This document shows, one piece after another, positions 6,909 to 23,928 of a DNA stretch of 34,021 nt. Location: the NCBI GenBank assembly GCA_019116485.1, contig DXBO01000028.1, positions 1-34,021 of the forward strand, given 5' to 3'. Source of the stretch: Candidatus Gemmiger excrementavium. Its GTDB lineage: Bacteria; Bacillota; Clostridia; Oscillospirales; Ruminococcaceae. The notes under the pieces were generated by a model. The model was not told the DNA's origin. It was given only the letters and a program-made list of their open reading frames with translations, and searched no databases. The translations under genes were made by a program, and so were the position numbers. The stretch's first letter is position 1. Every line of letters begins with the position of its first letter.

Positions 6909-6986
6909 ACCCAACAGAAAAATCCGTGACCCCGGCGCATAGGCGCCCCCCTTTGTCATACACTAAGACAGAAAGGGGTGGTGCCT

Positions 6987-8225: not shown

Positions 8226-10057
8226 GATTTGGCGAGGAACACCACGAACCCGCCGCGGCCCGGCATACCCTGCAGGCCATGGCGGCGCTGATCCGCCACC
8301 GGGGCCCCGACGGGGAGGGCCTGTATGCCGATGACCGGGCGGCGCTGGGCCACCGGCGGCTCTCCATCATCGACCTGGAGGGCGGCGGCCAGCCCATGTT
8401 CAACGAGGACGGCAGCCTGGTGGTGGTCTTCAACGGCGAAATCTACAACTACCGGGAACTGGCCCGCCAACTCTCGGCGGCGGGGCATGTGTTTGCCACC
8501 CGGTCGGATACCGAGGTGCTGCTTCACGGTTGGGAGCAGTGGGGCAAGGCGCTGCCCGGCAAGCTGCGGGGGATGTTTGCCTTTGTGCTGTGGGACCGCA
8601 ACACCGGTACGATGTTCGGCGCGCGGGATGTGTTCGGCATCAAGCCGTTGTACTATTACCGCCGGGGGGAACTGCTGCTGTTCGCCAGCGAGATCAAAGC
8701 GCTGCTGGCCCACCCCGGTTTTGTGAAACAGTTCAACGAAGCCCGCCTGCCGGATTACCTGAGCATGGAATACCTGCCCGGGGACGAAACGCTGTTCACC
8801 GGCGTCTACGAACTGCTGCCTGCCCACAGCTTTACCTGGCAGGCCGGCAAACTTCGGGTGGAACGGTATGCCGCCCTGCGTTTTGCAGAAAAGCGGGACC
8901 GTACCCTGGCGGAATGGGCCGAGGCCATCGATGCTGCTTTTACCGACAGCGTGGCAGCCCATCGCATTGCCGATGTGGAGGTGGGATGCTTTCTCTCCGG
9001 CGGGGTGGATTCCAGCCTGGTAGCCTGCAAGGCCGCCCGGCAGCAGGAAAAACTGCGCTGCTTTTCGGTAGGATATGCCGAGGAGGACTACTCCGAACTG
9101 CCCGTTGCCCGGCAGGCAGCCGAAGCCTTGGGCGTGCCCTGTACCGAGACCACCGTCGGCGCCGAGGAATTTTTTGCCGCCAACCGGGCCATCCAGTGGT
9201 ATCTGGACGAACCCATGCCCAACCCGGCAGAGGTGCCGCTGTATTTCCTCTGCCGCACGGCGCGGCAGCAGGTCAAGGTGGTACTCTCCGGCGAGGGGGC
9301 AGATGAGTTGTTCGGCGGCTACCCCCTCTACTGCCAGGCAGTCCACGCCGAAGCCTGGCAGCAGCTGCCCCGGGGCGTGCGACGCCTGCTGGCCCGGTGC
9401 GCACCGGGCTGCGGCTTTTTGCGCCGGGGTGCTTTGCCCCGGTGGCGGCGCAGCGCCCGGGCCAACTACGTCTTTGCCGACCCGGCTGAGCGGGACCGCT
9501 ACCTGAACCGGGACGTGGGGGCACCCAGCCCGGCCCGCCGGTGCAAACCTTATTTTGACGCCGTGCAGGGGTTGGACGAGGCCACCGCTGTGCAGTGGGT
9601 GGACCTGCAGACCTGGCTGCCCCGGGACATCCTGCGCAAAGCGGACCGCATGAGCATGGCCCACAGCCTGGAACTGCGGGTGCCTTTTTTGGACCGGGCG
9701 GTATGGGCCCAGGCCCGGGCTTTGCCCCGGCCCCTGCGCTGCACCCGCCGCAAGACCAAGGTGGCCCTGCGGGCTGCGGCGGCCTGCAGTCTGCCGTCCG
9801 AAATTTCGGGGCGCAAAAAGCGGGGCTTCCCGGTGCCGCTGGCCGACTGGCTGCGGCAGGACAAATATTACCAGATGGTGCGGGAAAAGTTCACCGGCCC
9901 GGTGGCATCACGCTTTTTCGATACCACCGCTTTGTGCGACCTGCTGGAGGCCCACCGGGCAGGTAAGGTCAAAGGGATGACGAAAATATGGAGTTTTTAC
10001 TGCTTTATCCTGTGGTATGAACTGTACTTTACCGGGCCGTTCCCGCCGGACCTGTAA
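8210..10057 (+). CDS. asnB: AsnB-like glutamine-dependent amidotransferase (copy 2)
   Basis: 615 residues. The N-terminal glutaminase domain begins MCGIVGF with catalytic Cys2, followed by RGPDG and NGEIYNY. The synthetase domain has SGGVDS (263-268) and LSGEGADELFGGY. Start at 8210 is set by Cys2 and by AAGGAGG at 8197-8203. The gene begins inside the last codons of the ATP-grasp ligase gene, so both products are probably made in step. Clearly paralogous to copy 1 in both domains, though the acceptor-side regions differ, so the two may amidate different substrates. Candidate role: amidation of the residue added by the ligase (AsnH-like). A plain asparagine synthetase cannot be excluded. No terminator is evident after it. 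Confidence 0.93.
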   Translation: MCGIVGFGEEHHEPAAARHTLQAMAALIRHRGPDGEGLYADDRAALGHRRLSIIDLEGGGQPMFNEDGSLVVVFNGEIYNYRELARQLSAAGHVFATRSDTEVLLHGWEQWGKALPGKLRGMFAFVLWDRNTGTMFGARDVFGIKPLYYYRRGELLLFASEIKALLAHPGFVKQFNEARLPDYLSMEYLPGDETLFTGVYELLPAHSFTWQAGKLRVERYAALRFAEKRDRTLAEWAEAIDAAFTDSVAAHRIADVEVGCFLSGGVDSSLVACKAARQQEKLRCFSVGYAEEDYSELPVARQAAEALGVPCTETTVGAEEFFAANRAIQWYLDEPMPNPAEVPLYFLCRTARQQVKVVLSGEGADELFGGYPLYCQAVHAEAWQQLPRGVRRLLARCAPGCGFLRRGALPRWRRSARANYVFADPAERDRYLNRDVGAPSPARRCKPYFDAVQGLDEATAVQWVDLQTWLPRDILRKADRMSMAHSLELRVPFLDRAVWAQARALPRPLRCTRRKTKVALRAAAACSLPSEISGRKKRGFPVPLADWLRQDKYYQMVREKFTGPVASRFFDTTALCDLLEAHRAGKVKGMTKIWSFYCFILWYELYFTGPFPPDL

Positions 10058-10153: not shown

Positions 10154-10227
<74 letters not shown>

Positions 10228-10233
10228 TTTTGT

Positions 10234-10311
10234 GGTGCCTATGGCGCAGTTGGTTAGCGCGCCAGATTGTGGCTCTGGAGGCCGAGAGTTCGAATCTCTC
10301 TAGGCACCCCA
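10234..10311 (+). tRNA. tRNA-His (GTG)
   Basis: Acceptor stem GTGCCTA (10235-10241) pairs with TAGGCAC (10301-10307). The histidine-specific extra G-1 (10234) faces C73 (10308), a well-known identity feature. Anticodon loop TTGTGGC gives GTG. CCA is encoded at 10309-10311. Only 6 nt separate it from tRNA-Arg, so both are processed from one transcript. Confidence 0.95.
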
Positions 10312-10313
10312 CC

Positions 10314-10350
10314 AAAGACCGTGCAGGCCCGTCCTCACGGTCTTTTCTTT
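10314..10350 (+). terminator. intrinsic terminator between tRNA-His and tRNA-Gln
   Basis: AAAGACCGTG (10314-10323) pairs with CACGGTCTTT (10336-10345) around a 12-nt loop, followed by a T-rich tail. As it precedes tRNA-Gln in the same direction, it may be leaky, or tRNA-Gln may have its own start. Confidence 0.75.
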
Positions 10351-10353
10351 TAC

Positions 10354-10428
10354 TGGGCCGTCGCCAAGCGGTAAGGCAGAGGACTTTGACTCCTCCATCC
10401 GTCGGTTCGAATCCGGCCGGCCCAACCA
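10354..10428 (+). tRNA. tRNA-Gln (TTG)
   Basis: Acceptor stem TGGGCCG (10354-10360) pairs with CGGCCCA (10418-10424). The anticodon stem GAGGA/TCCTC encloses CTTTGAC, anticodon TTG. T loop is TTCGAAT. Discriminator A is followed by an encoded CCA (10426-10428). Confidence 0.95.
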
Positions 10429-10902: not shown

Positions 10903-10964
10903 AAGACGATATAGTAGGCGGCGTGTGCCCGTCTGCCAAATTTCGGGAAGCGAGGCGTATCGCA

Positions 10965-12080
10965 ATGAGTCAACAGCCTGTCACGGTGCCCTTTGTATCT
11001 TTCCGCCCCATGGAGCGGGAACTGGACAAGGAACTGCGCGCGGCCTTTGACCGGGTGCTGCAAAACAGCTGGTATATTGAAGGGCGGGAGGATGCCGCCT
11101 TTGAACAGGCCTTTGCCGCTTACTGCGGTGTGGGCCACTGTGTGGGCTGTGGCAACGGCCTGGATTCTCTGGTGCTGATCCTCAAGGCTTTCGGCATCGG
11201 GGCGGGGGATGAAGTCATTGTGCCCTCCAACACCTTCATCGCCACGGTGCTGGCCGTCAGCTACGCCGGGGCTACGCCGGTCTTTGTGGAACCCGATCTG
11301 GCTACCTACAACATCGACCCCAACCGCATAGAAGCGGCGCTGACCCCCCGCACCAAAGCCATCATGGCGGTGCACCTCTATGGTCAGTGCGCCCCCATGG
11401 ACGCCATCAACACCATCGCCAAAGCCCACGGTCTCAAAGTCATCGAGGATGCAGCCCAGGCCCACGGCGCTACCTGGCAGGGCCGCCGGGCGGGCAGCCT
11501 TGGCGATGCCGCCGGGTTCAGCTTCTACCCGGGCAAAAATCTGGGTGCTCTGGGCGATGCGGGCTGCGTCACCACCAACGACCCCGACCTGGCCAAAAAG
11601 GTGCGGGCGCTGGGCAACTACGGCAGTGACTTCAAATACCACCATATTTATAAGGGGCAGAATTCCCGCCTGGACGAACTGCAGGCCGCTTTCCTGGCCG
11701 CCAAGCTGCCCCATCTGGACCGCATGAATGCCGAGCGCCGCCGCATCGCGGACCGCTACCTGGCCGAGATCCGCAACCCCGCCGTGGTGCTGCCCACCGT
11801 GGCGGCGGGCTGTGAGCATGTATGGCATGTCTTTGCGGTGCGCTGTGCGGCCCGTGATGCTCTGGAAGCCCACCTGACGGCCCGGGGCATCGGCACCAAC
11901 AAGCATTATCCCACCCCTATCCACCGCCAGGGGGCTTATGCGGAACTGGGCATCCCCCAGGGGGCGCTGCCTCTGGCTGAGGAAATTTCCGCCACCGAAC
12001 TGAGCCTGCCCATGTTCTACGGCATGACCGAGGAACAGGTCACCGCTGTCATCAACGCCGTCAATTCGTTTAAGGAGTAA
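10965..12080 (+). CDS. fdtB: DegT/DnrJ/EryC1-family sugar aminotransferase (FdtB-like)
   Basis: 371 residues, a PLP-dependent nucleotide-sugar aminotransferase of fold type I. Visible features are GNGLDSL (64-70), which contacts the cofactor, PSNTFIAT, the aspartate of EDAAQAHG (about D162) and the internal-aldimine lysine in FYPGKNLG (K191). Together with the FdtA-like ketoisomerase downstream it fits 3-transamination of a dTDP-3-keto-6-deoxyhexose, giving dTDP-Fuc3N or dTDP-Qui3N. Specificity is inferred from this pairing. Start chosen at 10965 ([10 protein letters not shown]), with GAGG about 10 nt upstream. A longer in-frame extension from 10923 has no homology and starts close to the promoter. 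First gene of the operon. Confidence 0.88.
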
Positions 12081-12082
12081 CC

Positions 12083-12967
12083 ATGCCAAACGTCGGGATC
12101 GTCATCTCCAACTACAACGGCTGGCAGGACACCGTTCAGTGTCTGGAAAGCCTGCAAAAGCAGACCTGCCGGGATTTTGAGATCATCCTGCTGGACGATG
12201 CCTCCACCAACGACTCGGTGGTGCAGCTGCAAAGCCGCCTGCCCGCCAACACGGTGTTCCTGCCCCAGGAGTCCAACGTGGGCTTTGCGGCGGCCAACAA
12301 CATCGGTATGCGGCGGGCGCTGGCCGACGGATGCGACTGGGTGCTGCTGCTGAACAACGACACCACTGCTGCACCGGACTTCCTGGAAACACTGCTGGCT
12401 CAGACTCCCCCCGGGGCAGCCAGCTGCCCCAAGATGCTGTTCATGGACCCGCCCGATGAGATATGGTTCGCGGGCGGGGAACTGGACCGGGCTACCGGCA
12501 AAGTCAGGCATCTGGGCGGCCACGCAAAGGATGGCCCCGCTTTCGGCCAGAAAAAGCAGGTCAGCTTTATTACCTTCTGCTGTGTGCTGCTGCCCCGGGC
12601 GGTGATCGAGCAGGTGGGCTTTCTGGACGAAACGCTGTTCATGTACTGCGAGGATGTGGATTACTGCATCCGCCTGGGCGACGCCGGGGTGCCCCTGTGG
12701 TTCGTGCCAGACGCGAAGATATGGCACAAGGCCGGGGGCAGTGCCGGGGGTATGCTTTCGGTATATTACATCACCCGTAACACGCTGTACCTGATCTGCA
12801 AGGGAAAAAGTGCGGCGTATGCCCGCCTCAAAACGGTGGGACCGCTGCTCACCGGTGCGGCCCGGTATACGCTGACCAGACTGCTGGGCCGAAAAAAAGG
12901 GCGCAGCTACGGCGCATATAGGGGCGCCTTGGATTTCTGGCGCGGCAAAATGGGCCGCATGGAATAA
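12083..12967 (+). CDS. GT2 glycosyltransferase, WbbL/rhamnosyltransferase-like
   Basis: 294 residues, GT-A fold. The N-terminus reads VGIVISNYNGW with LLDDAST. The metal-binding motif is LLNNDT (about residues 91-96), the NND variant of DxD typical of WbbL-type rhamnosyltransferases. The acceptor-side segment FLDETLFMYCEDVDYCIR contains the ED motif usual in this subfamily. The C-terminal 70 residues are basic and may sit at the membrane. AAGGAG overlaps the fdtB stop and the start is 3 nt after it, so the genes are tightly coupled. It acts on the cytoplasmic face, extending a lipid-linked glycan. Donor sugar unknown. Confidence 0.88.
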   Translation: MPNVGIVISNYNGWQDTVQCLESLQKQTCRDFEIILLDDASTNDSVVQLQSRLPANTVFLPQESNVGFAAANNIGMRRALADGCDWVLLLNNDTTAAPDFLETLLAQTPPGAASCPKMLFMDPPDEIWFAGGELDRATGKVRHLGGHAKDGPAFGQKKQVSFITFCCVLLPRAVIEQVGFLDETLFMYCEDVDYCIRLGDAGVPLWFVPDAKIWHKAGGSAGGMLSVYYITRNTLYLICKGKSAAYARLKTVGPLLTGAARYTLTRLLGRKKGRSYGAYRGALDFWRGKMGRME

Positions 12968-12991
12968 AGAAAACGAGAGGAGAGGCCGGCT

Positions 12992-13942
12992 ATGGAAAAA
13001 ATGCTTACCGTACTGGTGGCCCAGTACCGGCCCGATCCTCAGGCGCTGCGGCGCACCCTGGCCTCGCTGGCGATGCAGGCTACCCGGGATTTTGCGGTGG
13101 TGCTGGCCGACGACGGCTCCCCCCAACCCTTTTTTGAAGAAAGCAAAGCCTGGCTGGCCGGGCAGGGCATCCACGATGTACAGGCTGTGGCCATGGTGCA
13201 AAACGGCGGCACGGTGCGCAATATCCTGAATGCCCTGCAGGCTGTCAACACCCGCTGGGTGCTGACCCTCTCACCGGGGGATTACCTCTACGATGCCGAT
13301 ACCCTGCCCTGGTGGCTGGAACAGCTGCGGGCCGATGCCCCCCGGGTGGCCTTTGGGCGACAGGCCTATTACACACCGGGGCCGGACCCCACCCCCGCGC
13401 CGGGGGAGACCCCTTTTGACCGCACCCCTTATGACCCGGCCCGGTATGATGCGCGGACCATCAAGCGCAACCTGTTGCTCTACGATGACGGCATCAGCGG
13501 CTGTGGTATGGTATATGAGCGGGATCTGCTGAAAGGGGCGCTGGAGATGATGGCAGGCCGTGTGCGTCTGGCTGAGGATTTTGCGGTGCGCCTGTTTGCG
13601 GTGCAGGGGGTGCCCATCACCCGGTACGACCGGCTGACCAGCTGGTATGAGTACGGGGCGGGGGTCTCCACCAACGAGACGGCCCGCCAGCGCATGGCAG
13701 CCGAGTGGCAGGCCATGGTGGAACTGCTGCAAGAGCGCTACCCCAGCGACCCCACGGTGCGGCTGGCCCGGGCCTATTTCTTCAATGACCGCCGCAAAAA
13801 CCGCCTGGTGCGCGGGCTGGTGGGGCGGCTTATCGTACCCCAGAACGCCCCCTTTAAAAAAGCGCAGCGGGCCTGGCAACCGCCGGTCAACGGCAATGCT
13901 GAAAAGCTGCGGGCAATCTACGCGGCCGCCGCGCGGCCCTGA
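12992..13942 (+). CDS. GT2-like glycosyltransferase with atypical DxD region
   Basis: 316 residues. The N-terminal half reads as a GT2 fold, with LTVLVAQYRPDPQALRRTL, then VVLADDGS (nucleotide-binding) and NGGTVRNI. Where most GT2 enzymes have a DSDD-type metal motif, this one has LSPGDYLYD (about residues 93-101), with only the final Asp of the motif retained. The C-terminal part has a plausible general-base segment (RLAEDFAVRLF) and ends in a basic tail. GAGGAGAGG precedes the ATG at 12992. Distant from the other GT2 enzymes of the operon. Likely a glycosyltransferase, but donor, acceptor and catalytic competence are open. Confidence 0.75.
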   Translation: MEKMLTVLVAQYRPDPQALRRTLASLAMQATRDFAVVLADDGSPQPFFEESKAWLAGQGIHDVQAVAMVQNGGTVRNILNALQAVNTRWVLTLSPGDYLYDADTLPWWLEQLRADAPRVAFGRQAYYTPGPDPTPAPGETPFDRTPYDPARYDARTIKRNLLLYDDGISGCGMVYERDLLKGALEMMAGRVRLAEDFAVRLFAVQGVPITRYDRLTSWYEYGAGVSTNETARQRMAAEWQAMVELLQERYPSDPTVRLARAYFFNDRRKNRLVRGLVGRLIVPQNAPFKKAQRAWQPPVNGNAEKLRAIYAAAARP

Positions 13943-13969
13943 CAAACTGTATGTAAAGGAGCTTTTTCC

Positions 13970-15520
13970 ATGACGCAGTTCTTGGATACCCTGGAACAAG
14001 CGGCGCGCAGCGGCTGGCAGCGTGTGGACAAACGGTTGCTGACGGCAGTGTCGCTGTCCGCCGTAATCTGCATGCTGCTGGCCCATGGCTTTGCCTTTAC
14101 CAACCTGTTTCCCAACCATGACAGCACAGTGGTGGTATTTGACGCCCAGTGGACCATGTATGTGCTGGGGCGGTGGGCGCAGAACCTGTATTTCCCGCTG
14201 ATTCGCGGAAAAGTGGCAGCCCCCTGGCTCATCGGCGCGTTCAGTACGGTGTATCTGGCGCTGACGGGGTACATCCTGGCAGTTTTACTGCGGCTGTCCC
14301 GTGGGGCGGCGGCACTGCTCACCGGTATCCTGGGGTGCTGCGCCAGTGTCACGGCGCTGCTGGCCACCTATACCTACGAGACTGACGCTTACCTGCTGGC
14401 CATGCTGCTGGCCTGTGCCGGGGCCTGGTGCGTGCACGCTGTGCGCGGCATCCGTGGTCTGGTAGCCGGTGCGGTCCTTTTTTGCGGATGTCTGGCACTG
14501 TATCAGTCCTACATCCAGTTCGCGGCAGGTATATTTTTGCTGCTTCTGCTGGACGCGGCGGGGAAAGATACCCCTTGGCAGTCCTGGCTGCGGCAGGGGC
14601 TGCGGGCTTTGGCGGCGCTGGTATTGGGCGGCGGGCTGTATTGGCTCTCGGTCAAAATTTCTCTGGCGTTAACGGGGTATCAGCTGGCCGATACCGGCAA
14701 CGGACTGGGCCAGCTGACACGGCTGGGACCGGCAGCTATTTTGACAGGTATTCCAGCGGTTTACCAGGATTTTTTTGAAAAATTGCTGGGCTATTCCGGC
14801 TGGAATGACCGGGGGATGCGGGTGGCTGCGGCGTTGTTGCTGCTTTTGTCCCTGTGGGGGCTCTTTCTGCGGTTGCGGGGACAAACGGGGCGCGGGATTG
14901 CTCAGTCGTTGCTTGCAGTGGCCCTTTTGCCGTTTGGGTTAAACGTAATTTATCTGCTTGCGTCTGGCAATGTGTACATTTTGATGCAACATGCCATATT
15001 CCTGGTATATGCATTGCCATGGATGCTGTTCGGGAGCGGGGCGCCTGAGGCACCCCGGGCACTCTGGCGCTGGTGCGTCGGGGCGTTGTGCGCTTTCCTG
15101 GTCCTGCGCATGGTCATTTGTGCCAACGGGGCCTATGTCTATACAAAACTGGTGTACGACCAGACGGCCCGCCAGATGTCTGTCATCACGGCGGAAGTGC
15201 AGCAGCTGCCCGGGTATGAAGAGGGGGTCACCCCCATCGCCTTTGTCGGTGATTTTACCCAGTCGAACTTTGCCTACCGTGACCCGGCATTCAGCCGGTA
15301 TGAGGAGGGTGACCTGCATCAGGTCCCTTCGGCTGTTACCTATGACGGTACCATCAAATGGTGGTTCCAGCATGTAATGGGAAGTTCCGCGGCAGTCATA
15401 GCAGACCAGGCCCAGCTGGACGCCTGGGCCGAAGATGAGCGGGTACAGGCTATGCCCGCATATCCCTATAGCGGCTGTTGCGCGATGTTGGACGGCACAG
15501 CCGTTGTCAAGATTTCCTGA
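13970..15520 (+). CDS. GtrII-like polytopic membrane glucosyltransferase
   Basis: 516 residues with about 10-12 hydrophobic spans between residues 25 and 395, then a soluble C-terminal domain of about 120 residues. The first extracytoplasmic loop has NLFPNHDSTVVVFDAQW and LGRWAQNLYFPLIRGK, resembling the GtrII glucosyltransferase family (PF14264). Those GT-C-type enzymes use undecaprenyl-phosphate-linked sugar outside the membrane to decorate a polymer. No GtrA/GtrB-type donor genes are in the window, so the lipid-linked donor must come from elsewhere. A short GC dip occurs near 14,940-15,000. AAAGGAG lies upstream of the ATG. Family assignment is from motif memory. Confidence 0.75.
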   Translation: MTQFLDTLEQAARSGWQRVDKRLLTAVSLSAVICMLLAHGFAFTNLFPNHDSTVVVFDAQWTMYVLGRWAQNLYFPLIRGKVAAPWLIGAFSTVYLALTGYILAVLLRLSRGAAALLTGILGCCASVTALLATYTYETDAYLLAMLLACAGAWCVHAVRGIRGLVAGAVLFCGCLALYQSYIQFAAGIFLLLLLDAAGKDTPWQSWLRQGLRALAALVLGGGLYWLSVKISLALTGYQLADTGNGLGQLTRLGPAAILTGIPAVYQDFFEKLLGYSGWNDRGMRVAAALLLLLSLWGLFLRLRGQTGRGIAQSLLAVALLPFGLNVIYLLASGNVYILMQHAIFLVYALPWMLFGSGAPEAPRALWRWCVGALCAFLVLRMVICANGAYVYTKLVYDQTARQMSVITAEVQQLPGYEEGVTPIAFVGDFTQSNFAYRDPAFSRYEEGDLHQVPSAVTYDGTIKWWFQHVMGSSAAVIADQAQLDAWAEDERVQAMPAYPYSGCCAMLDGTAVVKIS

Positions 15521-15536
15521 AGAAAGGAAAACACCT

Positions 15537-15953
15537 ATGATTATCCAGACCATCAGCATCAAAAGCGTTACCGCGGCGGGCATGGGTACCCTCTCGGTCT
15601 TTGAGGCGGAACGGGATGTGCCTTTTGCGGTCAAGCGCATTTACTACATCCACGGCGCACCGGAAGGGGTGCGGCGGGGCGGTCACGCCCACAAGCAGCT
15701 GCGCCAGCTGTTGTGGTGCCCCTACGGCAGCATTCTGATCCGGTTGGACGATGGCCACGAAAAAGCCGAAGTGCTGTTGAACGATCCCGCCAAAGGCCTG
15801 ATTGTGGAACACAACATGTGGCGGGAGATGCTCTGGCAGAAAACGGACTCGGTGCTCTGTGTGGCGGCGGATTCTTATTATGACGCCGACGATTACATCC
15901 GGGATTATGAGGAATTCCGGCGCGCCGTGCAGGCGGCCGGCACGGAGGATTGA
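15537..15953 (+). CDS. fdtA: FdtA/QdtA-like sugar 3,4-ketoisomerase
   Basis: 138 residues, a single cupin domain of the WxcM/FdtA type. The signature RRGGHAHKQLRQLLWCPYGS carries the paired histidines of the active site, and the C-terminal FRRAV segment is normal. The family converts dTDP-4-keto-6-deoxyglucose to the 3-keto isomer, as the galacto (FdtA) or gluco (QdtA) epimer, which the aminotransferase then aminates. The stereochemistry cannot be told from sequence. AAAGGA is 8 nt before the ATG at 15537. It is separated from its partner fdtB by three transferase genes, suggesting cluster shuffling. Confidence 0.88.
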   Translation: MIIQTISIKSVTAAGMGTLSVFEAERDVPFAVKRIYYIHGAPEGVRRGGHAHKQLRQLLWCPYGSILIRLDDGHEKAEVLLNDPAKGLIVEHNMWREMLWQKTDSVLCVAADSYYDADDYIRDYEEFRRAVQAAGTED

Positions 15954-15955
15954 GT

Positions 15956-16894
15956 TTGCAGAATGTATTGATCCTTTCCGCCGGGGTAACCACTACCTGG
16001 CACCTGGCCCAGGTGGCGCGCCGCTATTTCGGCGGAGATATCCGCCTGCATCTGTGCGATATCAACCCCCGGGAGCTGGTGGCGGCTGCCACGATGGCAG
16101 ACTGCTATCACCGGGTTCCTTTTCTGACCGACCCTGGGTATGAGGATGCTATCTGCCGCATCCTGCAGGAACATCACATGGATGTGATCGTGCCGCTCAT
16201 CGACCAGGACCTGTTCACCTGGGCCTGTGATGCTCCTCGTTTGATGGAACTGGGGGTGCGTTCTACCGCACCCCGGCGAGGCACCGTAAAGCTGCTCAGC
16301 GACAAGCAGGCTATGGCAAGGTTCCTGACGGATCACGACCTTCCCACGCCGCCCCTGGTCCCTCCAGAAGCGGTGGAACCCGGGCGTGCCTATGTCATCA
16401 AGAAAAAAGTGGGCTGTGGTTCCCATGATATGCGGGTGGTCACCGGTGGTGAGGAATTTTCCCTGAGCGGGGATGAGATTTTGCAGGAAAAATGCGATGG
16501 CGATGGAGTGGAGATCACCGCCGAAATTTTTAATGCCCAGGGCAAACTACGGGTATACTGCCGGGAACGGGTCATGACCAAGGCCGGTGTATGCACCAAG
16601 ATGGTGCCCCGTCATGAGCCGGAGATCGAGACATACATCGCCCGGCTGGTACAATTGCTGCCCTGTCCGACAGCGTTCTGCGCCCAGTTCATGCGGCACC
16701 GCGGGCAGTGGAATATGATCGATTGCAACCTGCGTATGGGGGCGGGCACTGCGTTGGCCAGCGCGGCGGGTTTTCAGCTGACCCGCGCGTTCTGGGCTGA
16801 TCTGTGCGACCGCCCGGTGCCCGACAAGTGGCTGCAGCCTGACCCGGCTGTCAAAGCGGTACTGCGGGTCTATCAGGAAGTGGTGATCCGGTGA
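15956..16894 (+). CDS. CarB-like ATP-grasp enzyme of unknown substrate
   Basis: About 312 residues. An N-terminal Rossmann-like preATP-grasp domain (NVLILSAGVTTTWHLAQ) is followed by the ATP-grasp fold. That shows LSDKQAMARFLTDHDLPTP (115-133), the nucleotide-binding VIKKKVGCGSHDMR (147-160) and a metal-binding DCNLRMGAG (256-264), where NLR replaces the usual NPR. Such enzymes join a carboxylate to an amine or other nucleophile through an acyl phosphate. TTG at 15956 is taken as start because GGAGG at 15944-15948 gives 7-nt spacing. TTG at 15950 would be only 1 nt from it. It overlaps the HAD gene by 4 nt and follows fdtA by 2 nt, so amino-sugar acylation is a reasonable guess. Confidence 0.8.
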   Translation: MQNVLILSAGVTTTWHLAQVARRYFGGDIRLHLCDINPRELVAAATMADCYHRVPFLTDPGYEDAICRILQEHHMDVIVPLIDQDLFTWACDAPRLMELGVRSTAPRRGTVKLLSDKQAMARFLTDHDLPTPPLVPPEAVEPGRAYVIKKKVGCGSHDMRVVTGGEEFSLSGDEILQEKCDGDGVEITAEIFNAQGKLRVYCRERVMTKAGVCTKMVPRHEPEIETYIARLVQLLPCPTAFCAQFMRHRGQWNMIDCNLRMGAGTALASAAGFQLTRAFWADLCDRPVPDKWLQPDPAVKAVLRVYQEVVIR

Positions 16895-17535
16895 CGATTT
16901 TTTGCGATGTGGACGGCACATTGCTGGACAGCAGCGCCCGCCATGAGCAACTGCTGCGGGACCTGATCCGAGAGGAGGGCCTTACCTGGCCGCAACAGGC
17001 ACCCGATTACCTGGCCTACAAAGCGGACGGCCACAGCACCTTTGCCTGGCTGCGAAAAGCCGGTTTTGGGGAAGAAATCGCCCGGCATCTTGCAGAAAGC
17101 TGGCGGCAGCGCATTGAGTGGCCCGGCTATCTGCAGACAGACAAGCCCTACCCGGATGCAGCAGCATTTTTACAAGCGGTGAAATGTTTGCCTGCCGTTG
17201 TGGTGCTGCTCTCTGCCCGGCAAGATGCCGCGGCACTGCAGAGTACCCTGGAACAGTGCGGTCTGTTGCCGCTGGTGCAGGAATTGGCCGTGGTTTCTCC
17301 TCAGGGGGCGGCACAGCGTAAGGCCGCATTTCTGCGCGGCAGAGCTCAGCCCGGTGATATCATGGTGGGCGATACCGAAGCTGACCTGGCAGCGGCACAG
17401 GCGGCGGGGCTGCCCTGTCTGCTGTTGGACCGGGGGTTCCGCAGCCGCCGGTACTGGCAGGAACAAGGACGGGACAGCTGTGCCGGTCTGCAGGAGATTC
17501 TGGAACACCTGCCACGGAAAATCAAGGAGGAATGA
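16891..17535 (+). CDS. HAD-superfamily phosphatase
   Basis: 214 residues. All four HAD motifs are visible: DVDGT at 6-10 (nucleophile D6, acid D8), LLSAR at 106-110, lysine in QRKAAF at about 143, and GDTEAD at 160-165. A cap domain lies between motifs I and II, as in subclass C1. It therefore probably hydrolyses a small phosphorylated metabolite in the cytoplasm, perhaps a sugar phosphate or an intermediate of the neighbouring ATP-grasp reaction. Start GTG at 16891 overlaps the ATP-grasp stop as GTGA, so the pair is coupled. No ATG start is available near the conserved DVDGT motif, which must lie at the very N-terminus. Confidence 0.88.
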   Translation: MTIFCDVDGTLLDSSARHEQLLRDLIREEGLTWPQQAPDYLAYKADGHSTFAWLRKAGFGEEIARHLAESWRQRIEWPGYLQTDKPYPDAAAFLQAVKCLPAVVVLLSARQDAAALQSTLEQCGLLPLVQELAVVSPQGAAQRKAAFLRGRAQPGDIMVGDTEADLAAAQAAGLPCLLLDRGFRSRRYWQEQGRDSCAGLQEILEHLPRKIKEE

Positions 17536-17538
17536 GCG

Positions 17539-18597
17539 ATGCAGCAGCCCAAAGTGAGCGTGCTGATCTCTTTTTATAACCTGGCACCCTATGTGGACCA
17601 GACACTGGAGAGCGTACTGGGTCAGAAAACAGATTTCCCCGTAGAAGTGCTGTGCGCCGATGATGGCTCCGACGACGGGACCATTGATATCCTGCGCGGC
17701 TGGGAACAGCGTTACCCGGACTCAGTACGGGTTTTTGTGATGGACCGTATTCCCGGTGCCAAATATGAGGCCAACGAGCGCATCCGGCGGATGAACGCCA
17801 TCCGGGGACGCCTGTTTTACGAGGCCAAGGGTGAATATATCTGCTATCTGGATGGAGACGATTTTTATACCGACGAGTACAAGCTGCAGAAGCAGGCGGA
17901 CATTCTGGATGCTGACACCGCCCACCGTTACATTGGCTGCGGGCACAACGGCTGCTACTATTGGCAGGAATCCGGTGAGACCCGCCCAATCGAGCGTCCC
18001 ATCCGGGAATGCAGCCTGACCGCCGGGGAATACTGGAGTTTTCTGTACATCCACACCAATGCGCTGATGCTGCGCAACGTGGGTCTGCAGGGCATCGACC
18101 CCTATACCAGCGGCATTCCTATCATCGACAATCCGCTGACCTTCCAGTTCCTGCCCTACGGCGATATCTACTATCTGCCGGATTGCATGTTCCATTACCG
18201 GCAGATGGGAGACAGTACCTATCACCGGCGCAGCCCTTACCAGAATGATATCCTCACGGCGCTGATCCAGTATGAACAACCCCGTGTTACCCGCCGCTTC
18301 TGGGCCGCGGGGCTGGTCCGTTTCCTGCGGGAGCATGAGTCGCTGTTTGCCGCCCGCAAGGACCCCCAACTTACCCGGGAGGCCCAGACCTATATGGAAA
18401 ACATCCACACCTACCACGCAGGGCGGCTGCGGCGCATTGTGAACTACAACAACGAACCCTTGCCGGCACGTCTTTGGTGTGAAATCGAAAACCCCGTATG
18501 GTTCTTTGTGACCAAGGTTTGCCGCCATTTTATCTGGAAACCGAAGGTGCGAGCCCTGCTGGAAGAGGCCCGGCAAAAACTGGAACAGAATGCCTGA
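17539..18597 (+). CDS. GT2 family glycosyltransferase
   Basis: 352 residues, GT-A fold. Features are VSVLISFYN, ADDGSDDGT and a clear metal-binding YLDGDDFYTD at about residues 106-115. The segment NNPLTF-like IPIIDNPLTFQF and the His/Arg-rich FHYRQMGDSTYHRR follow. The C-terminal third is probably an accessory region that helps bind acceptor. AAGGAGG lies 8 nt before the ATG and overlaps the end of the HAD gene. It works on the cytoplasmic face in repeat-unit assembly. Donor unknown. Confidence 0.88.
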   Translation: MQQPKVSVLISFYNLAPYVDQTLESVLGQKTDFPVEVLCADDGSDDGTIDILRGWEQRYPDSVRVFVMDRIPGAKYEANERIRRMNAIRGRLFYEAKGEYICYLDGDDFYTDEYKLQKQADILDADTAHRYIGCGHNGCYYWQESGETRPIERPIRECSLTAGEYWSFLYIHTNALMLRNVGLQGIDPYTSGIPIIDNPLTFQFLPYGDIYYLPDCMFHYRQMGDSTYHRRSPYQNDILTALIQYEQPRVTRRFWAAGLVRFLREHESLFAARKDPQLTREAQTYMENIHTYHAGRLRRIVNYNNEPLPARLWCEIENPVWFFVTKVCRHFIWKPKVRALLEEARQKLEQNA

Positions 18598-18613
18598 AAA
18601 GGAAGTGGAACAC

Positions 18614-19726
18614 ATGGAAGATATGCATGAGTTGACGGCGGAACAGCAGGTGGAATTGCTGCGCCACGAGTTGGAGGCCGTGTACGGTTCCTCCTCCTAC
18701 AAGATCGGCCGTGCCGTCACCTGGCTGCCGCGCAATGCGGCCCGCGGGTTGAAATACCTACTGCACAACGGGCCTGTCGTCAGTGTGCGCTATATCGTCA
18801 CCTATCTCCGCTACCACAAGATCGCAAATAAAAACTACGCTTACTGGGCTTGTTTGCAAAAAAAGGATTACCCGGAAGCGCTGAAAAAGTGGTTCCTGGA
18901 GACCAACTACACCCATACCCCTCTGGACCTGGAACATCCCAAAACCTTCAGCGAAAAGACCCAGTGGCTCAAGCTTTACGGCGGGTTTGAGGAAGTTTAT
19001 CCCTTGGTGGACAAGTACGAGGTCCGTGCCTGGGTCAAGGAAAAAATCGGCGAGGAATATCTGATCCCGCTGTTGGGTGTGTATGACCGCTTTGACGACA
19101 TTGATTTTGATGCGCTGCCGGATAAATTCATGCTCAAGGTCAACCACGGTGCGGGCTGGAACATCGCCGTACAGGATAAGACCAAGTTCGACAAAGCCGA
19201 TGCCAAACGCAAGGTCGAAACCTGGCTCAAGCTGAACTACTGCTACCTCATGGGCGGGTTGGATGTGCAGTATATTCACATTAAACCGCGCATTCTTGTT
19301 GAGGAGTATATGGAAAATAATGGCGGGGATTTGTATGATTATAAATTTTGTTGCTTCGATGGGGAACCAAAAGTTATTATCTATATCATGAATCGCTATA
19401 ACGAAGAGGATGAGCGAATTATCTGCTTTGATACAGATTGGAATTTGCTTCCGTTCAATATCTTTACGCCGCTTGAACAACCAAGGGATATCCCACGGCC
19501 ACCTAATTTGGAGAAAATGGTGGAGATTGCACGCATCTTGAGCAAGGGATTTGCTGCGGTGCGAGTCGATTTGTATGCTCTTAATGACGGAAGTATAAAA
19601 TTTGGCGAAATGACATTTACCACATATAGCGGGATAGCACCTTGGCACCCCGAGAGCGCTAACCTCTATATGGGCAGTTTGATCCACCTGCCCGGCGTGG
19701 ACGATGCGCCCGCCGCCACACAGTAA
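18614..19726 (+). CDS. TupA-like ATP-grasp protein
   Basis: 370 residues. A short N-terminal helix with SSSYKIGRAVTWLP, a motif often fused to cell-surface glycosyltransferases, precedes a TupA-like ATP-grasp domain (PF14305). Typical segments are HPKTFSEKTQWLKLY, LVDKYEVRAWVKEKIG, FMLKVNHGAGWN, ILVEEYM, DYKFCCFDGEPK and KFGEMTFTTYSG. Related proteins occur in teichuronopeptide and capsule loci, where they are thought to ligate or transfer a substituent onto the polymer. The reaction is not established. Start 18614 preferred because AAAAGGAAGTGG lies upstream. ATG at 18590 lacks a site. From about residue 216 the base composition drops sharply, to about 40% GC over 19261-19620. Confidence 0.8.
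   Translation: MEDMHELTAEQQVELLRHELEAVYGSSSYKIGRAVTWLPRNAARGLKYLLHNGPVVSVRYIVTYLRYHKIANKNYAYWACLQKKDYPEALKKWFLETNYTHTPLDLEHPKTFSEKTQWLKLYGGFEEVYPLVDKYEVRAWVKEKIGEEYLIPLLGVYDRFDDIDFDALPDKFMLKVNHGAGWNIAVQDKTKFDKADAKRKVETWLKLNYCYLMGGLDVQYIHIKPRILVEEYMENNGGDLYDYKFCCFDGEPKVIIYIMNRYNEEDERIICFDTDWNLLPFNIFTPLEQPRDIPRPPNLEKMVEIARILSKGFAAVRVDLYALNDGSIKFGEMTFTTYSGIAPWHPESANLYMGSLIHLPGVDDAPAATQ
19261..19620. other. low-GC segment inside the TupA-like gene
   Basis: By hand count 144 of 360 bases are G or C (40%), against 50-60% in the first half of the same gene and over 60% in much of the window. Codon choice shifts too, with ATT, TAT, AAA and GTT becoming common. The reading frame is unbroken, so this is a compositional mosaic rather than an insertion. 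Confidence 0.8.
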
Positions 19727-19736
19727 AGGAACCGCG

Positions 19737-20735
19737 ATGGCCCAGACAACACCCAAAATCAGCGTTATCGTGCCGGTCTACAAGGCCGAGGAAACACTGG
19801 ATGCCTGTGTGAACAGCATCCTGGCACAGACGCTGGAAGATTTTGAACTGCTGCTCATCGACGATGAGAGCCCGGACCGCTGCCCGGAACTGTGCGACGC
19901 CTGGGCTGCCAGGGACCCGCGCATCCGGGCGCTGCACCCATCCAAAGCCGGGCCGGGGCCATCCGGCGCCCGCAACGCCGGGCTGGACGCTGCCCGCGGG
20001 AAATGGATCACCATGGTGGACAGCGATGATACCGTCGCCCCGGATTTGTTCGCCGCGCTGTATTATGCCGCAAACCAAAGTGGCGCAGACTTGGTACTCT
20101 GCAACTGTTGTCGTGTACAGCAAGACGGCACTTTGATGCCGCTGCCGCAGGAGCAGTGCTTCCCGGTGGATACGATCCTCAGCGAAGAACAGTTCTGGGA
20201 TGCTTTCGGCACTCCCTGGATCAACCAGTTTACCGGTACGGCCCATCGGCTGTATGCGGCCAAACTGTTTGACGGTGTGCGCTATCCCCTGGGAATGCTG
20301 CACGAGGATTATTATGTGCTGCCCGACCTGATCGCCCGCTGTGGTATCATCCAGTGCCTGGCCTACACCGGGTACTATGTGCTGCAGCACGAGGGCAGCA
20401 TTACGGCCACCGCCCGCCAGGAAGTGCGCCTGGCTATGACCCGCGGCGATATCCACCGGGCGGAGTATTTCCTGTCCCGAGGGTGGCATGACCGGGCTGA
20501 AGGTGCCCTTACCGATGCGGCGGAATTCCTCTACCGCAACAAGGCTGCCTACGACCTGCGCAAGCCCGGGCACCGGGCCGAATTCGCCTTTGTTAAAGGG
20601 GAACTCTGCCGCGTTTACGGCGGGCTGGCAGCCCAAAAGGGGGCGCGCTCCCTCAAACTGCGCGCGGCAGCCCTGCGATGGGGATTGCCGGTGTTCCATG
20701 CCTACCGGGCTTTGCTGGCCGCCCGCCACGGCTGA
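19737..20735 (+). CDS. GT2 family glycosyltransferase (tandem copy 1)
   Basis: 332 residues. N-terminal GT-A domain with ISVIVPVYKAEETLDACV, LLIDDESPDRCPELCD and the metal motif MVDSDDTVAPDLF (about residues 90-102). The C-terminal half includes LHEDYYVLPDLI and a YYVLQHEGSITA segment, as in EpsJ/WcaA-like transferases. It shares layout and long stretches of sequence with the next gene, so the two arose by duplication. AAAGGA precedes the ATG at 19737, ten bases after the previous stop. Cytoplasmic-face glycan assembly. Donor unknown. Confidence 0.9.
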   Translation: MAQTTPKISVIVPVYKAEETLDACVNSILAQTLEDFELLLIDDESPDRCPELCDAWAARDPRIRALHPSKAGPGPSGARNAGLDAARGKWITMVDSDDTVAPDLFAALYYAANQSGADLVLCNCCRVQQDGTLMPLPQEQCFPVDTILSEEQFWDAFGTPWINQFTGTAHRLYAAKLFDGVRYPLGMLHEDYYVLPDLIARCGIIQCLAYTGYYVLQHEGSITATARQEVRLAMTRGDIHRAEYFLSRGWHDRAEGALTDAAEFLYRNKAAYDLRKPGHRAEFAFVKGELCRVYGGLAAQKGARSLKLRAAALRWGLPVFHAYRALLAARHG

Positions 20736-20759
20736 TTTTGTTCTGTAAAGGAGTTTGCC

Positions 20760-21728
20760 ATGCCTGCCATCAGTGTTATCATTCCGGTATATAAGGTGGA
20801 GCCCTATCTGGACGCCTGTGTGTCCAGTGTGGTGGGCCAGACCTTTTCGGACCTGGAAATCCTGCTGGTGGACGACGGCAGTCCCGACCGTTGCCCGGAA
20901 CTGTGCGATACATGGGCCCAAAAAGACCCCCGGGTGCGGGTGATCCACCAGGAAAACGGCGGCCTGTCCGCCGCGCGCAATACCGGCATCGAGGCGGCCA
21001 AAGGGGAGTTTCTGGCTTTTGTGGACAGTGATGATATGCTGGAACCCGATGCCTTGCGCCGGGCCTGGGAGGCACAGCGAGAGTATGGTGCGGATCTTGT
21101 CATCATCAATGTTGTGTATGTAGATGAAAACGAAAGGCCTCTAGGGACACCGGATTTCAGTATGTTTCAGGATGAAGTGCTGGATGAGGATGCCATTTGG
21201 CAACGCTATTTCGCACTAGGGGAACAAAAGATATACTACGCCATTGCCTGTAGTAAATTGATAAGGGCAGAGGTGTTTCAAGACCTGAGGTTCCGGGTTG
21301 GTAAACGATACGAGGATCAGTTCCTGATGCCACAGTTACTGCATCGATGCAAGGTTATTGTCTGCTTGGCATATCCGGGATACCACTATATTCAGCATAG
21401 CGGCAGCATCATGGCCCAGGGATCCAGCCGTAACTATTTAGATCGCAGCGAGTTTTTGCTGGAATGGTGCGACTATTTTTCGGATAAAGGCGATTTCCTG
21501 CGCGCAGAAGGGCTTTTGAACGATGCTATTCAAAATCTCAGCGAAAAAGAACGTTTTGACCTTTCTACCCCCGAGCAAAAGGCCCGGTACAGCGCAGACT
21601 GTAAAGCCTGCGCAGCGGCGTATGGGCGGTTGGCACGCCGTACCGGACGCGGTACGATGTGGTTGCGCGCAGGATTACTGCGGTGGAGTTTGCCGGCTTA
21701 CCTCCGATTTTTACAGAGAAAGCAATAA
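20760..21728 (+). CDS. GT2 family glycosyltransferase (tandem copy 2)
   Basis: 322 residues with the same architecture as its upstream neighbour: ISVIIPVYKVEPYLDACV, LLVDDGSPDRCPELCD, FVDSDDMLEP (about residues 84-93), then KRYEDQFLMPQLL and YHYIQHSGSIMA. The N-terminal donor-binding part is GC-rich (68% in one 60-base line). From about residue 115 the gene falls to about 46% GC (167 of 360 bases over 21121-21480), suggesting replacement of the acceptor-specificity part. AAAGGAG lies before the ATG at 20760. Linkage specificity unknown. Confidence 0.9.
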   Translation: MPAISVIIPVYKVEPYLDACVSSVVGQTFSDLEILLVDDGSPDRCPELCDTWAQKDPRVRVIHQENGGLSAARNTGIEAAKGEFLAFVDSDDMLEPDALRRAWEAQREYGADLVIINVVYVDENERPLGTPDFSMFQDEVLDEDAIWQRYFALGEQKIYYAIACSKLIRAEVFQDLRFRVGKRYEDQFLMPQLLHRCKVIVCLAYPGYHYIQHSGSIMAQGSSRNYLDRSEFLLEWCDYFSDKGDFLRAEGLLNDAIQNLSEKERFDLSTPEQKARYSADCKACAAAYGRLARRTGRGTMWLRAGLLRWSLPAYLRFLQRKQ

Positions 21729-21773
21729 AACCGGTGCTTTGGCCAGTAGGTCAATTCGAAAAGGAGTAATTTC

Positions 21774-22634
21774 ATGGAGCAGATGCAAAAGCAATACCAT
21801 GTGCACTATAGTCCCGCCAAAGGCTGGGCCCGGGTGGACTTCCACGAATTGTGGCGCTATAAGGACCTGATCTGGCTGTTCGTTAAGAGGGATTTCACCG
21901 TTATGTACAAGCAGACAGTGCTGGGCCCAGCCTGGGTGCTCATCAATCCCATTTTGTCCGCAGCTATGTACACCGTTATGTTCGGTGTTATTGCGGGTTT
22001 GTCCACTGACGGCGTACCCCAGACTCTGTTTTACTTGGCCGGCAGTGCACTGTGGGGATTCTTTGCGGCCTGTATCAACAAAATTTCGGCTACGTTTACC
22101 TCCAACTCTGCCATCTTCAGCAAGGTGTACTTTCCGCGGTTGGCAATGCCCATTTCCACCATGCTGTCGGCATTGATCAACTTTTTGCTGCAGTTTGCCA
22201 TGTTCTTTATTATGCTGCTGTACTATGTGGCCAAGGGGGAGGTCCAGCCCAACTGGGCCATGGTGCCCCTGACCGTGCTGCTGCTGGTGCAGGTGGGTTT
22301 GCTGGGCCTGGGCTGCGGCATCATCGTGTCCAGCCTGACCACCCGGTATCGGGACCTGATGGTGGTGGTCACATTTGGCGTGCAGCTGTGGATGTATGGC
22401 ACGCCGGTGGTCTATCCGCTCTCTATGGTCAGCGGTATGAGCCGAGTCCTGTATGCAGCCATGCTGTTCAATCCCATGACAGCACCTATGGAATCTTTCC
22501 GTTATATCTTCTTTGGCTCCGGGCAGGTAGACCTGCTCATGTGGGTGATTTCCATTCTCTGGACCTTTGCTCTGCTGGCCGTGGGTCTGTCCCTGTTCAG
22601 CAAAGTGGAAAAGACCTTTGTGGATACCGTGTAA
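21774..22634 (+). CDS. wzm: ABC-2 type polysaccharide export permease (Wzm/TagG-like)
   Basis: 286 residues, six predicted membrane spans. The cytoplasmic N-terminus contains DFHELWRYKDLIWLFVKRDF, which with the following YKQTVLGPAW is the hallmark of Wzm/TagG/RgpC exporters. It forms the channel that moves the lipid-linked polymer out, powered by the ATPase encoded next. AAAAGGAG precedes the ATG. The gap to the ATPase gene is only 13 bp with its own AAGGAGG site. An ABC exporter means the polymer is completed inside the cell, consistent with the absence of Wzx and Wzy here. Confidence 0.93.
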   Translation: MEQMQKQYHVHYSPAKGWARVDFHELWRYKDLIWLFVKRDFTVMYKQTVLGPAWVLINPILSAAMYTVMFGVIAGLSTDGVPQTLFYLAGSALWGFFAACINKISATFTSNSAIFSKVYFPRLAMPISTMLSALINFLLQFAMFFIMLLYYVAKGEVQPNWAMVPLTVLLLVQVGLLGLGCGIIVSSLTTRYRDLMVVVTFGVQLWMYGTPVVYPLSMVSGMSRVLYAAMLFNPMTAPMESFRYIFFGSGQVDLLMWVISILWTFALLAVGLSLFSKVEKTFVDTV

Positions 22635-22647
22635 GGAGGAGCGTATC

Positions 22648-23928
22648 ATGCAGCAACAAAAAGATATCATGATCCGCGTCCGGAATGTGAAGAAAAAATA
22701 TAAAATCGGCCAGATCGGCGGCGGTACCCTGCGGGGCGACCTGCAAAGCTGGTGGGCCCGCAAATGCGGCAAGGAGGACCCCAATACCCTTATCGGTACC
22801 GACCAGCGTCTGGTAGGTACCACCTTTATGGCACTGAACGGCGTGAGCTTTGAGGTGTACAAAGGAGAGGCCGTGGGCATCATCGGCTCCAACGGCGCGG
22901 GCAAATCCACGCTGCTGAAACTGCTCACCCACGTCACCGCCCCTACCGAGGGTGATATCGACCTGTATGGCCGCGTGGCTTCCATGCTGGAGGTGGGCAC
23001 CGGCTTCCACCCCGAAATGACCGGCCGGGAAAACGTCTATCTCAACGGTGCTATCTTGGGTATGACCCGGGCCGAGATCGACGCCAAAATGAGCGAGATC
23101 ATCGAATTTTCCGAGGTGGGCGATTTCATCGACACCCCGGTCAAGCGCTATTCCAGCGGTATGTATGTGAAGCTGGCGTTCAGCGTGGCGGCACACCTGG
23201 ACAGCGAGATCATGATCATGGACGAAGTGCTGGCCGTGGGCGATATGAAGTTCCAGAAAAAGTGCCTGGGCAAGATGCGCCAGGCCGCCCGGCGGGACGG
23301 CAAGACGGTGCTGTATGTCAGCCATAACATGGCCACCATCCGGGATTTGTGCGACCGCTGCATCGTGTTGGACCAAGGCAAAATTATCTTTGATGGAGAT
23401 GTGGACACAGGAATTGCGCTATATTTGGCCGCTAAAGCACAGAGCGGGAATTTTTTGGATTATTCAGATTATAAACGGGAGAGTTGGTGCCAGTGTGACG
23501 ATCTGAGAATCCGAAACGTTCGTTTTGGGGCTGAGTCCATCGAAGCATTGGAACGTAGCGAACCGGTACGCCTTGAGATGACGGTGGATGCTCGGAAATC
23601 TACAGATTCTATTGGTTTGCGGTTTGAGGTACGGGATGAAGTAGGCGCGCCGCTGGCCACTTCTTGTTTGTATGGACTGCGGATGAATGCGGGAGAAAAT
23701 CATCTGAACGTAGAATATGATTTAAGTATGCTTTCCCCAGCGCAGTACAATACTTACTTTACGTTGTTTGCTATAGGGGAAGGTGGCGGTCATAGTGATG
23801 AAGACTGTGTACCGGGGCCTCGGTTTGGGATGGTAGACACCTACAGCGACAAGCAGATAGAGTGGAATGCACGGCATTGGGGCTTTATCCAGTTGCCGGA
23901 TGCAAAACTTCTGCCGGAACAGGAATAA
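22648..23928 (+). CDS. wzt: ABC exporter ATPase with glycan-binding C-terminal domain (Wzt-like)
   Basis: 426 residues. The ATPase domain has Walker A GSNGAGKST (80-88), signature YSSGM (168-172) and Walker B IMIMDEV (188-194) with the H-loop histidine in VSHNM. After about residue 250 comes a beta-rich domain of about 175 residues with ESIEALERSEPVRLEM and GLRFEVRD. It resembles the Wzt C-terminal domain (PF14524) that recognises the terminal structure of the exported glycan. Base composition falls to about 49% GC over 23401-23880, starting almost exactly at the domain border. Start at 22648 chosen for the AAGGAGG site. It is the last gene of the operon, before a strong terminator. Confidence 0.93.
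   Translation: MQQQKDIMIRVRNVKKKYKIGQIGGGTLRGDLQSWWARKCGKEDPNTLIGTDQRLVGTTFMALNGVSFEVYKGEAVGIIGSNGAGKSTLLKLLTHVTAPTEGDIDLYGRVASMLEVGTGFHPEMTGRENVYLNGAILGMTRAEIDAKMSEIIEFSEVGDFIDTPVKRYSSGMYVKLAFSVAAHLDSEIMIMDEVLAVGDMKFQKKCLGKMRQAARRDGKTVLYVSHNMATIRDLCDRCIVLDQGKIIFDGDVDTGIALYLAAKAQSGNFLDYSDYKRESWCQCDDLRIRNVRFGAESIEALERSEPVRLEMTVDARKSTDSIGLRFEVRDEVGAPLATSCLYGLRMNAGENHLNVEYDLSMLSPAQYNTYFTLFAIGEGGGHSDEDCVPGPRFGMVDTYSDKQIEWNARHWGFIQLPDAKLLPEQE

Follow-up and report, generated by a model that had tools for sequence, protein, structure and literature searches.

Acylation of 3-amino-3,6-dideoxygalactose (Fuc3N) and 3-amino-3,6-dideoxyglucose (Qui3N) by groups other than acetyl is well known, since both sugars carry 3-hydroxybutanoyl groups in Acinetobacter (PMC3726653). 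In the type B flagellin of Clostridioides difficile, Fuc3N is N-3-acylated by glycine within a taurinyl-Ala-Gly chain (PMC5207245), and disruption of CDR20291_0245, an ATP-grasp gene (PF13535) near an FdtB homologue, removes the glycyl-Fuc3N residue (PMC5207246). The Neisseria protein PglB2, which combines ATP-grasp and phosphoglycosyltransferase, is credited with a glyceramido sugar, PglB giving the acetamido form (PMC11130364; also PMC4569582, PMC8627216), and ORF8, which in our view might encode a HAD protein, was inserted together with pglB2 (PMC11130364). An ATP-grasp_4 gene also stands last in sfm, the NeuB-like flagellin-modification operon of Shewanella oneidensis (PMC3765264). Here, we analyzed a locus of Candidatus Gemmiger excrementavium in which the gene of an FdtA/QdtA-type sugar ketoisomerase is followed by those of an ATP-grasp ligase and a haloacid dehalogenase-like (HAD) phosphatase. 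It lies on contig DXBO01000028.1, whose 34,021 nucleotides are called the window below (contig C128; the whole assembly has 2.5 Mb in 177 contigs and is 94% complete). The initial annotation had proposed a possible new N-acylation route for a dTDP-3-amino-deoxyhexose; given the C. difficile flagellin and PglB2 precedents (PMC5207245, PMC5207246, PMC11130364), such a route is not new in principle. In the open-licence literature, no paper was found linking ATP-grasp enzymes with Qui3N or with aminoacyl amino sugars of polysaccharides. The parts of papers available there contained no description of an FdtA/ATP-grasp/HAD module, and those of PMC3628348 and PMC13317340 contained nothing on ATP-grasp.

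Our preferred reading, to which we give about an even chance, is that the operon around these genes makes a surface glycan with a dTDP-derived 3-amino-3,6-dideoxyhexose, to whose amine the ATP-grasp protein would ligate an acid, the HAD phosphatase serving the ligase. The gene order, coordinates and junctions of the initial annotation were correct, with a 2 bp gap between the fdtA and ATP-grasp genes and a GTGA overlap between the latter and the HAD gene. Named relatives with the locus were all Gemmiger, namely An723 (L007), G. formicilis ATCC 27749 (L008), MCC627 (L009) and Candidatus G. avistercoris (L010). The three genes were contiguous in all four, and hence in five of five with the window included, and in L007 they were kept though the adjacent GtrII gene was unmatched. 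Identities to the window proteins were 79-83% for FdtA, 66-75% for the ATP-grasp protein and 55-62% for the HAD protein, the remaining operon proteins showing 63-87%. The ligase had dN/dS values of 0.14-0.23 and the HAD of 0.15-0.31, the synonymous sites being close to saturation. The gene content and its conservation are thus seen directly: four more Gemmiger genomes share the synteny of the trio, with ligase and HAD under purifying selection. In a family sample, the ligase was matched at E 1e-10 in 3 of 396 genomes, the window's own included. Two of the eight listed genomes of the genus had it; the locus is thus conserved where present but not found in every member.

The converse comparison started from FdtA. 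PF05523 matched 44 of 398 genomes, from which 15 strong places were kept (E < 1e-30; 13 genomes, the window's included) and weaker ones dropped. With 5-14 kb read at each of the other 14 strong loci, the ligase profile matched in none of them, and a hexapeptide or GNAT transferase was present in at least 11. The transferase was fused in L079, adjacent or at most two genes away in L077, L078, L081, L082, L083, L085, L087, L089 and L090, and about 5.3 kb off in L086. It was confirmed by Pfam in L078, L082, L083, L086 and L087 and recognized in the other six by similarity to one PglD-like protein; those beside FdtA in L078, L082 and L083 were of the GNAT type. No transferase was seen in the one or two open reading frames (ORFs) scanned per locus in L080, L084 and L088. 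The expectation that FdtA pathways usually come with an acyltransferase was therefore borne out in at least 11 of 14 loci. As the initial annotation also stated, the 13-gene operon of the window has no such enzyme, hexapeptide and GNAT families being unmatched by Pfam at E 0.001. Because of these two counts the Gemmiger arrangement is exceptional, its ligase and HAD genes occupying the usual position of the acyltransferase.

Relatives of the ligase were collected with a profile of 19 ligases (A3), which at E 1e-25 matched at 60 places, spread over 56 of the 398 genomes sampled from the phylum. We read 32 non-Gemmiger loci (the 29 best-scoring profile places, two weaker ones and one from the family sample), in which NeuA, NeuB, transaminase and phosphoglycosyltransferase calls are single-query matches at E 1e-8. 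Direct observation places amino-sugar genes near the ligase in 30 of the 32: NeuA or NeuB genes in 17 and a transaminase with a phosphoglycosyltransferase in 13, the short contigs L036 and L130 showing neither type. The concern raised initially, that the ligase might occur mostly in loci without amino-sugar genes, was thus not borne out. A HAD gene was the immediate same-strand downstream neighbor in 20 loci (gaps of -50 to 127 bp), lay further downstream in L131 and was unmatched in 11. The HAD profile was built from six of those 20, which Pfam confirms, and the independent count is 14 of 26. An adjacent HAD accompanied 14 of the 17 NeuA/NeuB loci versus 6 of the 13 transaminase/phosphoglycosyltransferase loci. 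Among plasmids, 21 records matched the ligase, and in all six that were opened a HAD gene follows immediately, as shown by annotation in five and by profile and Pfam in the sixth. Separately, L040, L045, L134-L137 and L140, from the same phylum, combine transaminase, phosphoglycosyltransferase and ATP-grasp genes, with a HAD in six of these seven, and resemble a split PglB2.

FdtA was found in none of the 32 loci, and its association with the ligase recurred in an alphaproteobacterium: p1METDI of Methylorubrum extorquens DM4 carries ATP-grasp, HAD, FdtA/QdtA and transaminase genes, with rfbB, rfbD and rfbA upstream. The neighborhood that the initial annotation had suggested seeking in other genomes is accordingly conserved in five of five Gemmiger loci and in Methylorubrum, but is not a common one, being absent from all 14 other strong FdtA loci and all 32 loci of ligase relatives. 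A tree of 43 ligases joined the sequences from Gemmiger and Methylorubrum with 99/96 support, on long branches and with a program warning, and Methylorubrum provided the best BLASTP match of the window ligase outside Gemmiger. The window and Methylorubrum HADs matched at E 8e-14, and none of the rest of the 31 non-Gemmiger HADs fell below E 0.04 to the window HAD. The HADs of nonulosonic-acid loci are thus of a different kind, which makes the same chemistry for every ATP-grasp/HAD pair a weak proposition and a specific FdtA/ATP-grasp/HAD module a stronger one. Apart from the window, a search of 398 genomes with the Gemmiger/Methylorubrum-type HAD found three matches, all of them weak. Two had no such ligase matched in their short flanks, and the third was rejected as a chance neighbor, the N-terminus of the adjoining ATP-grasp protein looking PurK-like when judged by eye. 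Against plasmids, the window HAD matched nothing and the Methylorubrum HAD only itself.

The ligase matches the Pfam families PylC-like_N (PF21360, 40.2 bits, cut-off 27) and ATP-grasp_3 (PF02655, 37.2 bits, cut-off 23.2). Five carbamoyl phosphate synthase-like NCBIfam models (PRK12767, NF009402-NF009406) all scored below their cut-offs, the best with 84.9 versus 390 bits, and the PylC family model itself (TIGR03909, 3-methylornithine-lysine ligase) gave no match at E 0.001. A structure model built from five close sequences had a mean predicted local distance difference test score (pLDDT) of 66.9, with residues 260-312 under 50. Since it is only a fair model, no active-site geometry is argued from it. 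Its top fold match was PylC (4ffl, E 7e-14, template-modelling (TM) score 0.46), and 2pn1 was also matched (TM range 0.46-0.48). Family matches and predicted fold together place the protein in the PylC-like ATP-grasp superfamily. Of the earlier description "CarB-like ATP-grasp", the second part stands; the first proved loose and was dropped, the synthase-like models being under cut-off and the fold nearest PylC. An alignment of 19 diverse ligase relatives has 16 invariant columns. The ENPR-type motif of the window ligase reads D-C-N-L-R, and the NLR in place of NPR that had been pointed out is real: it occurs in all five Gemmiger copies, the Methylorubrum relative having NPR. Among the rows compared (L047 excluded), the D is common to Gemmiger and Methylorubrum only and the L is confined to Gemmiger. 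With the window ligase as query, no relative was found in the viral contigs or phages searched. Three ligases of nonulosonic-acid loci (A4) matched three distant loci on viral contigs, two of which were read (L146, L147) and have no bearing on the present case; L147, from an uncultivated viral contig, encodes at positions 2989-3993 an ATP-grasp protein of the ligase superfamily (PylC-like_N, ATPgrasp_Ter).

The HAD protein exceeds the cut-off of PF00702 (49.6 versus 26.4 bits), and its alignments retain the DxDGT, SAR, Lys and GDTExD residues. Its structure model is of high confidence (pLDDT 93.8), with a fold like that of phosphoglycolate phosphatase-like and other HAD proteins. Intact motifs and predicted fold thus support membership of the superfamily. 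As the fold matches share only 13-22% identity, the substrate is not fixed by the fold; the phosphoglycolate phosphatase model TIGR01449 scored 32.4 versus a cut-off of 180 bits.

The genes for the sugar itself are present as initially described. FdtA matches PF05523 with 142 bits (cut-off 23), is closest among solved structures to 2pa7 (E 1e-26) and is the sole FdtA match in the genome; the transaminase is closest to QdtB (3frk, E 8e-148); and an RmlB above its family cut-off is encoded on contig C58. In the alignment, the position of QdtA R97 (H in FdtA) is R in the window protein and that of QdtA Y17 (R in FdtA) is M; across the five Gemmiger copies, the former is R throughout and the latter M or L. 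We take these two positions to set the configuration of the product. The R at the R97 place and QdtB as nearest solved transaminase slightly favor Qui3N over Fuc3N as the sugar.

The trio is part of a single run of 13 + strand genes (10965-23928) inside a surface-glycan cluster. The genes are, in order:

10965-12080, + strand: DegT-family 3-amino-sugar transaminase, QdtB/FdtB-like (PF01041, 404 bits; the ORF opens at 10923, probable start 10965)
12083-12967, + strand: GT2 glycosyltransferase (PF00535)
12992-13942, + strand: GT2-like glycosyltransferase (PF00535)
13970-15520, + strand: GtrII-type membrane glucosyltransferase (PF14264; unmatched in L007)
15537-15953, + strand: FdtA/QdtA sugar 3,4-ketoisomerase (PF05523)
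15956-16894, + strand: PylC-like ATP-grasp protein, proposed amino-sugar N-acyl ligase (PF21360, PF02655; TTG start)
16891-17535, + strand: HAD phosphatase (PF00702; DxDGT, Ser, Lys and GDTExD intact)
17539-18597, + strand: GT2 glycosyltransferase (PF00535)
18590-19726, + strand: second ATP-grasp protein, TupA-like (PF14305, 160 bits)
19704-20735, + strand: GT2 glycosyltransferase (PF00535)
20760-21728, + strand: GT2 glycosyltransferase (PF00535)
21774-22634, + strand: ABC-2 type exporter permease (PF01061)
22567-23928, + strand: ABC transporter ATPase (PF00005; true start probably internal to the ORF)

The earlier inventory had the 13 genes right and left the TupA-like ATP-grasp protein unmentioned; this protein was also matched in L004, L007, L008 and L009, and L010 stops short of its position. 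No phosphoglycosyltransferase (PF02397), fused or adjacent, was found by Pfam among the 13 genes, in which respect the operon differs from PglB2. The GtrII glucosyltransferase is perhaps dispensable, as it is unmatched in An723 (L007 5703-5755) and split into two alignment pieces in Candidatus G. avistercoris (L010 8024-9564). Upstream, the spacer between AsnB and the operon holds tRNA-Arg, tRNA-His and tRNA-Gln genes (10154-10428) and a short DUF1540-like ORF below its cut-off. Within 6978-10057, an ATP-grasp-like ORF overlaps the start of AsnB (probable AsnB start 8210); it has a weak ATPgrasp_Ter match and no NCBIfam family at 1e-5, and ORF and AsnB were matched jointly in L005, L009 (ORF cut by the locus end) and L010.

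On the preferred reading, the operon would make and export a surface glycan containing Qui3N or Fuc3N. FdtA would isomerize the product of RmlB, an enzyme encoded elsewhere in the genome, and the transaminase would then aminate it. From here on, we infer the ligase substrate, the ligase reaction and the HAD role. The ATP-grasp protein would activate a carboxylic acid with ATP as an acyl phosphate and pass it to the 3-amine in place of the usual coenzyme A-dependent acyltransferase; its most likely acceptor is the 3-amino sugar itself or an acid which that sugar already carries. The HAD would most likely free the acid from a phosphorylated form or remove phosphate from the product. Conservation of the trio in five of five loci, its recurrence in Methylorubrum and the nearest fold, that of the carboxylate-amine ligase PylC, support an N-acyl ligase, and the position of the pair where an acetylating enzyme is usually encoded suggests that the amino sugar carries a small acid, such as an amino acid, instead of acetate. 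With the 30 of 32 association and the published cases added, the initial proposal of an amine-acylating ATP-grasp ligase is partly supported, while the claim of a new route is not. Several points weigh against this reading. The 30 of 32 has no background rate from unselected glycan loci to set against; fdtA stands beside this ligase in only two lineages; and the Methylorubrum ligase is matched by L130 (1e-27) and L131 (4e-27), both without FdtA, versus 1e-25 for Gemmiger (BLASTP). In C. difficile, the authors' candidate for amine acylation is the FemAB-like CDR20291_0244, CDR20291_0245 being a "putative d-alanine ligase" assigned to the peptide part (PMC5207245), and the exact roles of the genes were left open (PMC5207246). 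Moreover, PF13535 of CDR20291_0245 is absent from the Pfam families found in the window, and "proposed" is the wording used for the PglB2 domain in PMC6959607.

The same doubts feed the competing explanations. The 3-amino sugar could be acetylated by an enzyme encoded elsewhere, such as a NeuD-like protein on contig C44, a GNAT or the product of a gene in an assembly gap, with the ATP-grasp/HAD pair modifying another part of the glycan, for example the carboxylate of a uronic acid; we hold this to be unlikely. The C44 gene (L032 1195-1734) encodes a 179-amino-acid NeuD/PglD-like sugar acetyltransferase beside an Acyl_transf_3 gene, with PglD_N above and TIGR03570 below its cut-off (109 versus 160.8 bits), and could be an alternative source of sugar acylation. 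Within the 19 kb around it, however, FdtA, transaminase, NeuA and NeuB were all unmatched, and two distant lineages have ATP-grasp/HAD linked to FdtA. Five other contigs also gave hexapeptide matches, including a maltose O-acetyltransferase-type protein (Mac domain) and others interpreted as CysE-like and gamma-carbonic-anhydrase-like. Two of these proteins are encoded on C15 (GlmU-like by eye) and C155, the acyltransferase search of the genome covered the hexapeptide type with no GNAT-directed search made, and the assembly is incomplete (94% in 177 contigs), all of which leaves room for acetylation at the expense of ligation.

The TupA-like ATP-grasp protein might instead attach an acyl or peptide group, the PylC-like protein and HAD only providing it with a building block (small amide or dipeptide). 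Its presence in the operon and in four other loci counts in favor of this and against our reading, as does the C. difficile cap, a small peptide-like chain of taurine, Ala and Gly attributed to several genes, with ATP-grasp assigned to the peptide part (PMC5207245). On the other hand, the TupA-like gene sits among glycosyltransferases, downstream of the trio and one GT2 gene, and no second ATP-grasp is annotated in the 10.9 kb opened around the Methylorubrum block, plasmid gene tables being incomplete; we regard this explanation as quite improbable. It is very doubtful, in our view, that the pair acylates no sugar, with the ATP-grasp protein acting as a kinase or producing a soluble metabolite and the HAD dephosphorylating a sugar phosphate in the precursor pathway. 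In nonulosonic-acid loci the HAD could be a 9-phosphate phosphatase, and the fold matches of the window HAD include, at lower rank, human NANP. Against this, we know of no phosphatase step in the dTDP-3-amino sugar pathway, the Gemmiger/Methylorubrum HADs are not close to those of nonulosonic-acid loci, and the nearest ATP-grasp fold is a carboxylate-amine ligase.

The ligation reading could be widened, with low confidence, to a portable cassette for supply and ligation of acids. In it, the HAD would free a small hydroxy or amino acid, for example glycerate, glycolate or serine, from its phosphate and the ligase would join it to the amino-sugar nitrogen. Versions of the cassette would diversify nonulosonic acids and bacillosamine-type sugars, those of Gemmiger and Methylorubrum acting on dTDP-3-amino sugars. 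The existence and conservation of the locus are established, its arrangement is unusual, and the HAD is its unexplained part. If ligation of an acid to the amino sugar is correct, glycan clusters with an amino-sugar transaminase and no acetyltransferase would become readable, an ATP-grasp/HAD pair marking unusual amide sugars, and "carbamoyl phosphate synthase-like" proteins and their adjoining HADs would gain a testable function.

Compared with the QdtABC and FdtABC systems for dTDP-Qui3NAc and dTDP-Fuc3NAc, the Gemmiger operon shares ketoisomerase and transaminase but has no hexapeptide or GNAT transferase. The C. difficile genes CDR20291_0244-0247 encode FemAB-like, ATP-grasp (PF13535), ornithine-cyclodeaminase/alanine-dehydrogenase-like and FdtB proteins. 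They resemble it in having ATP-grasp near an FdtB-type transaminase and in a product, Fuc3N-Gly capped by Ala and taurine. They differ in that the locus has no FdtA homologue and its listed genes include no HAD, in the Pfam family of the ATP-grasp, in a flagellin glycan that is not ABC-exported, and in the assignment of amine acylation to the FemAB-like protein. PglB2 shares amino-sugar acylation linked to ATP-grasp instead of acetylation, with split-PglB2-like layouts among the ligase relatives, but acts on a UDP-4-amino sugar, is fused to a phosphoglycosyltransferase and is likened here by description, not by sequence. The PRK12767 group gave the best NCBIfam matches, and its relatives often have a HAD downstream and amino-sugar genes; the window ligase differs in its score (84.9 versus 390 bits) and in reading D-C-N-L-R at the ENPR motif. 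Against this background, in which ATP-grasp-dependent decoration of amino sugars is already known, the novelty of the Gemmiger locus is the trio with a HAD of its own.

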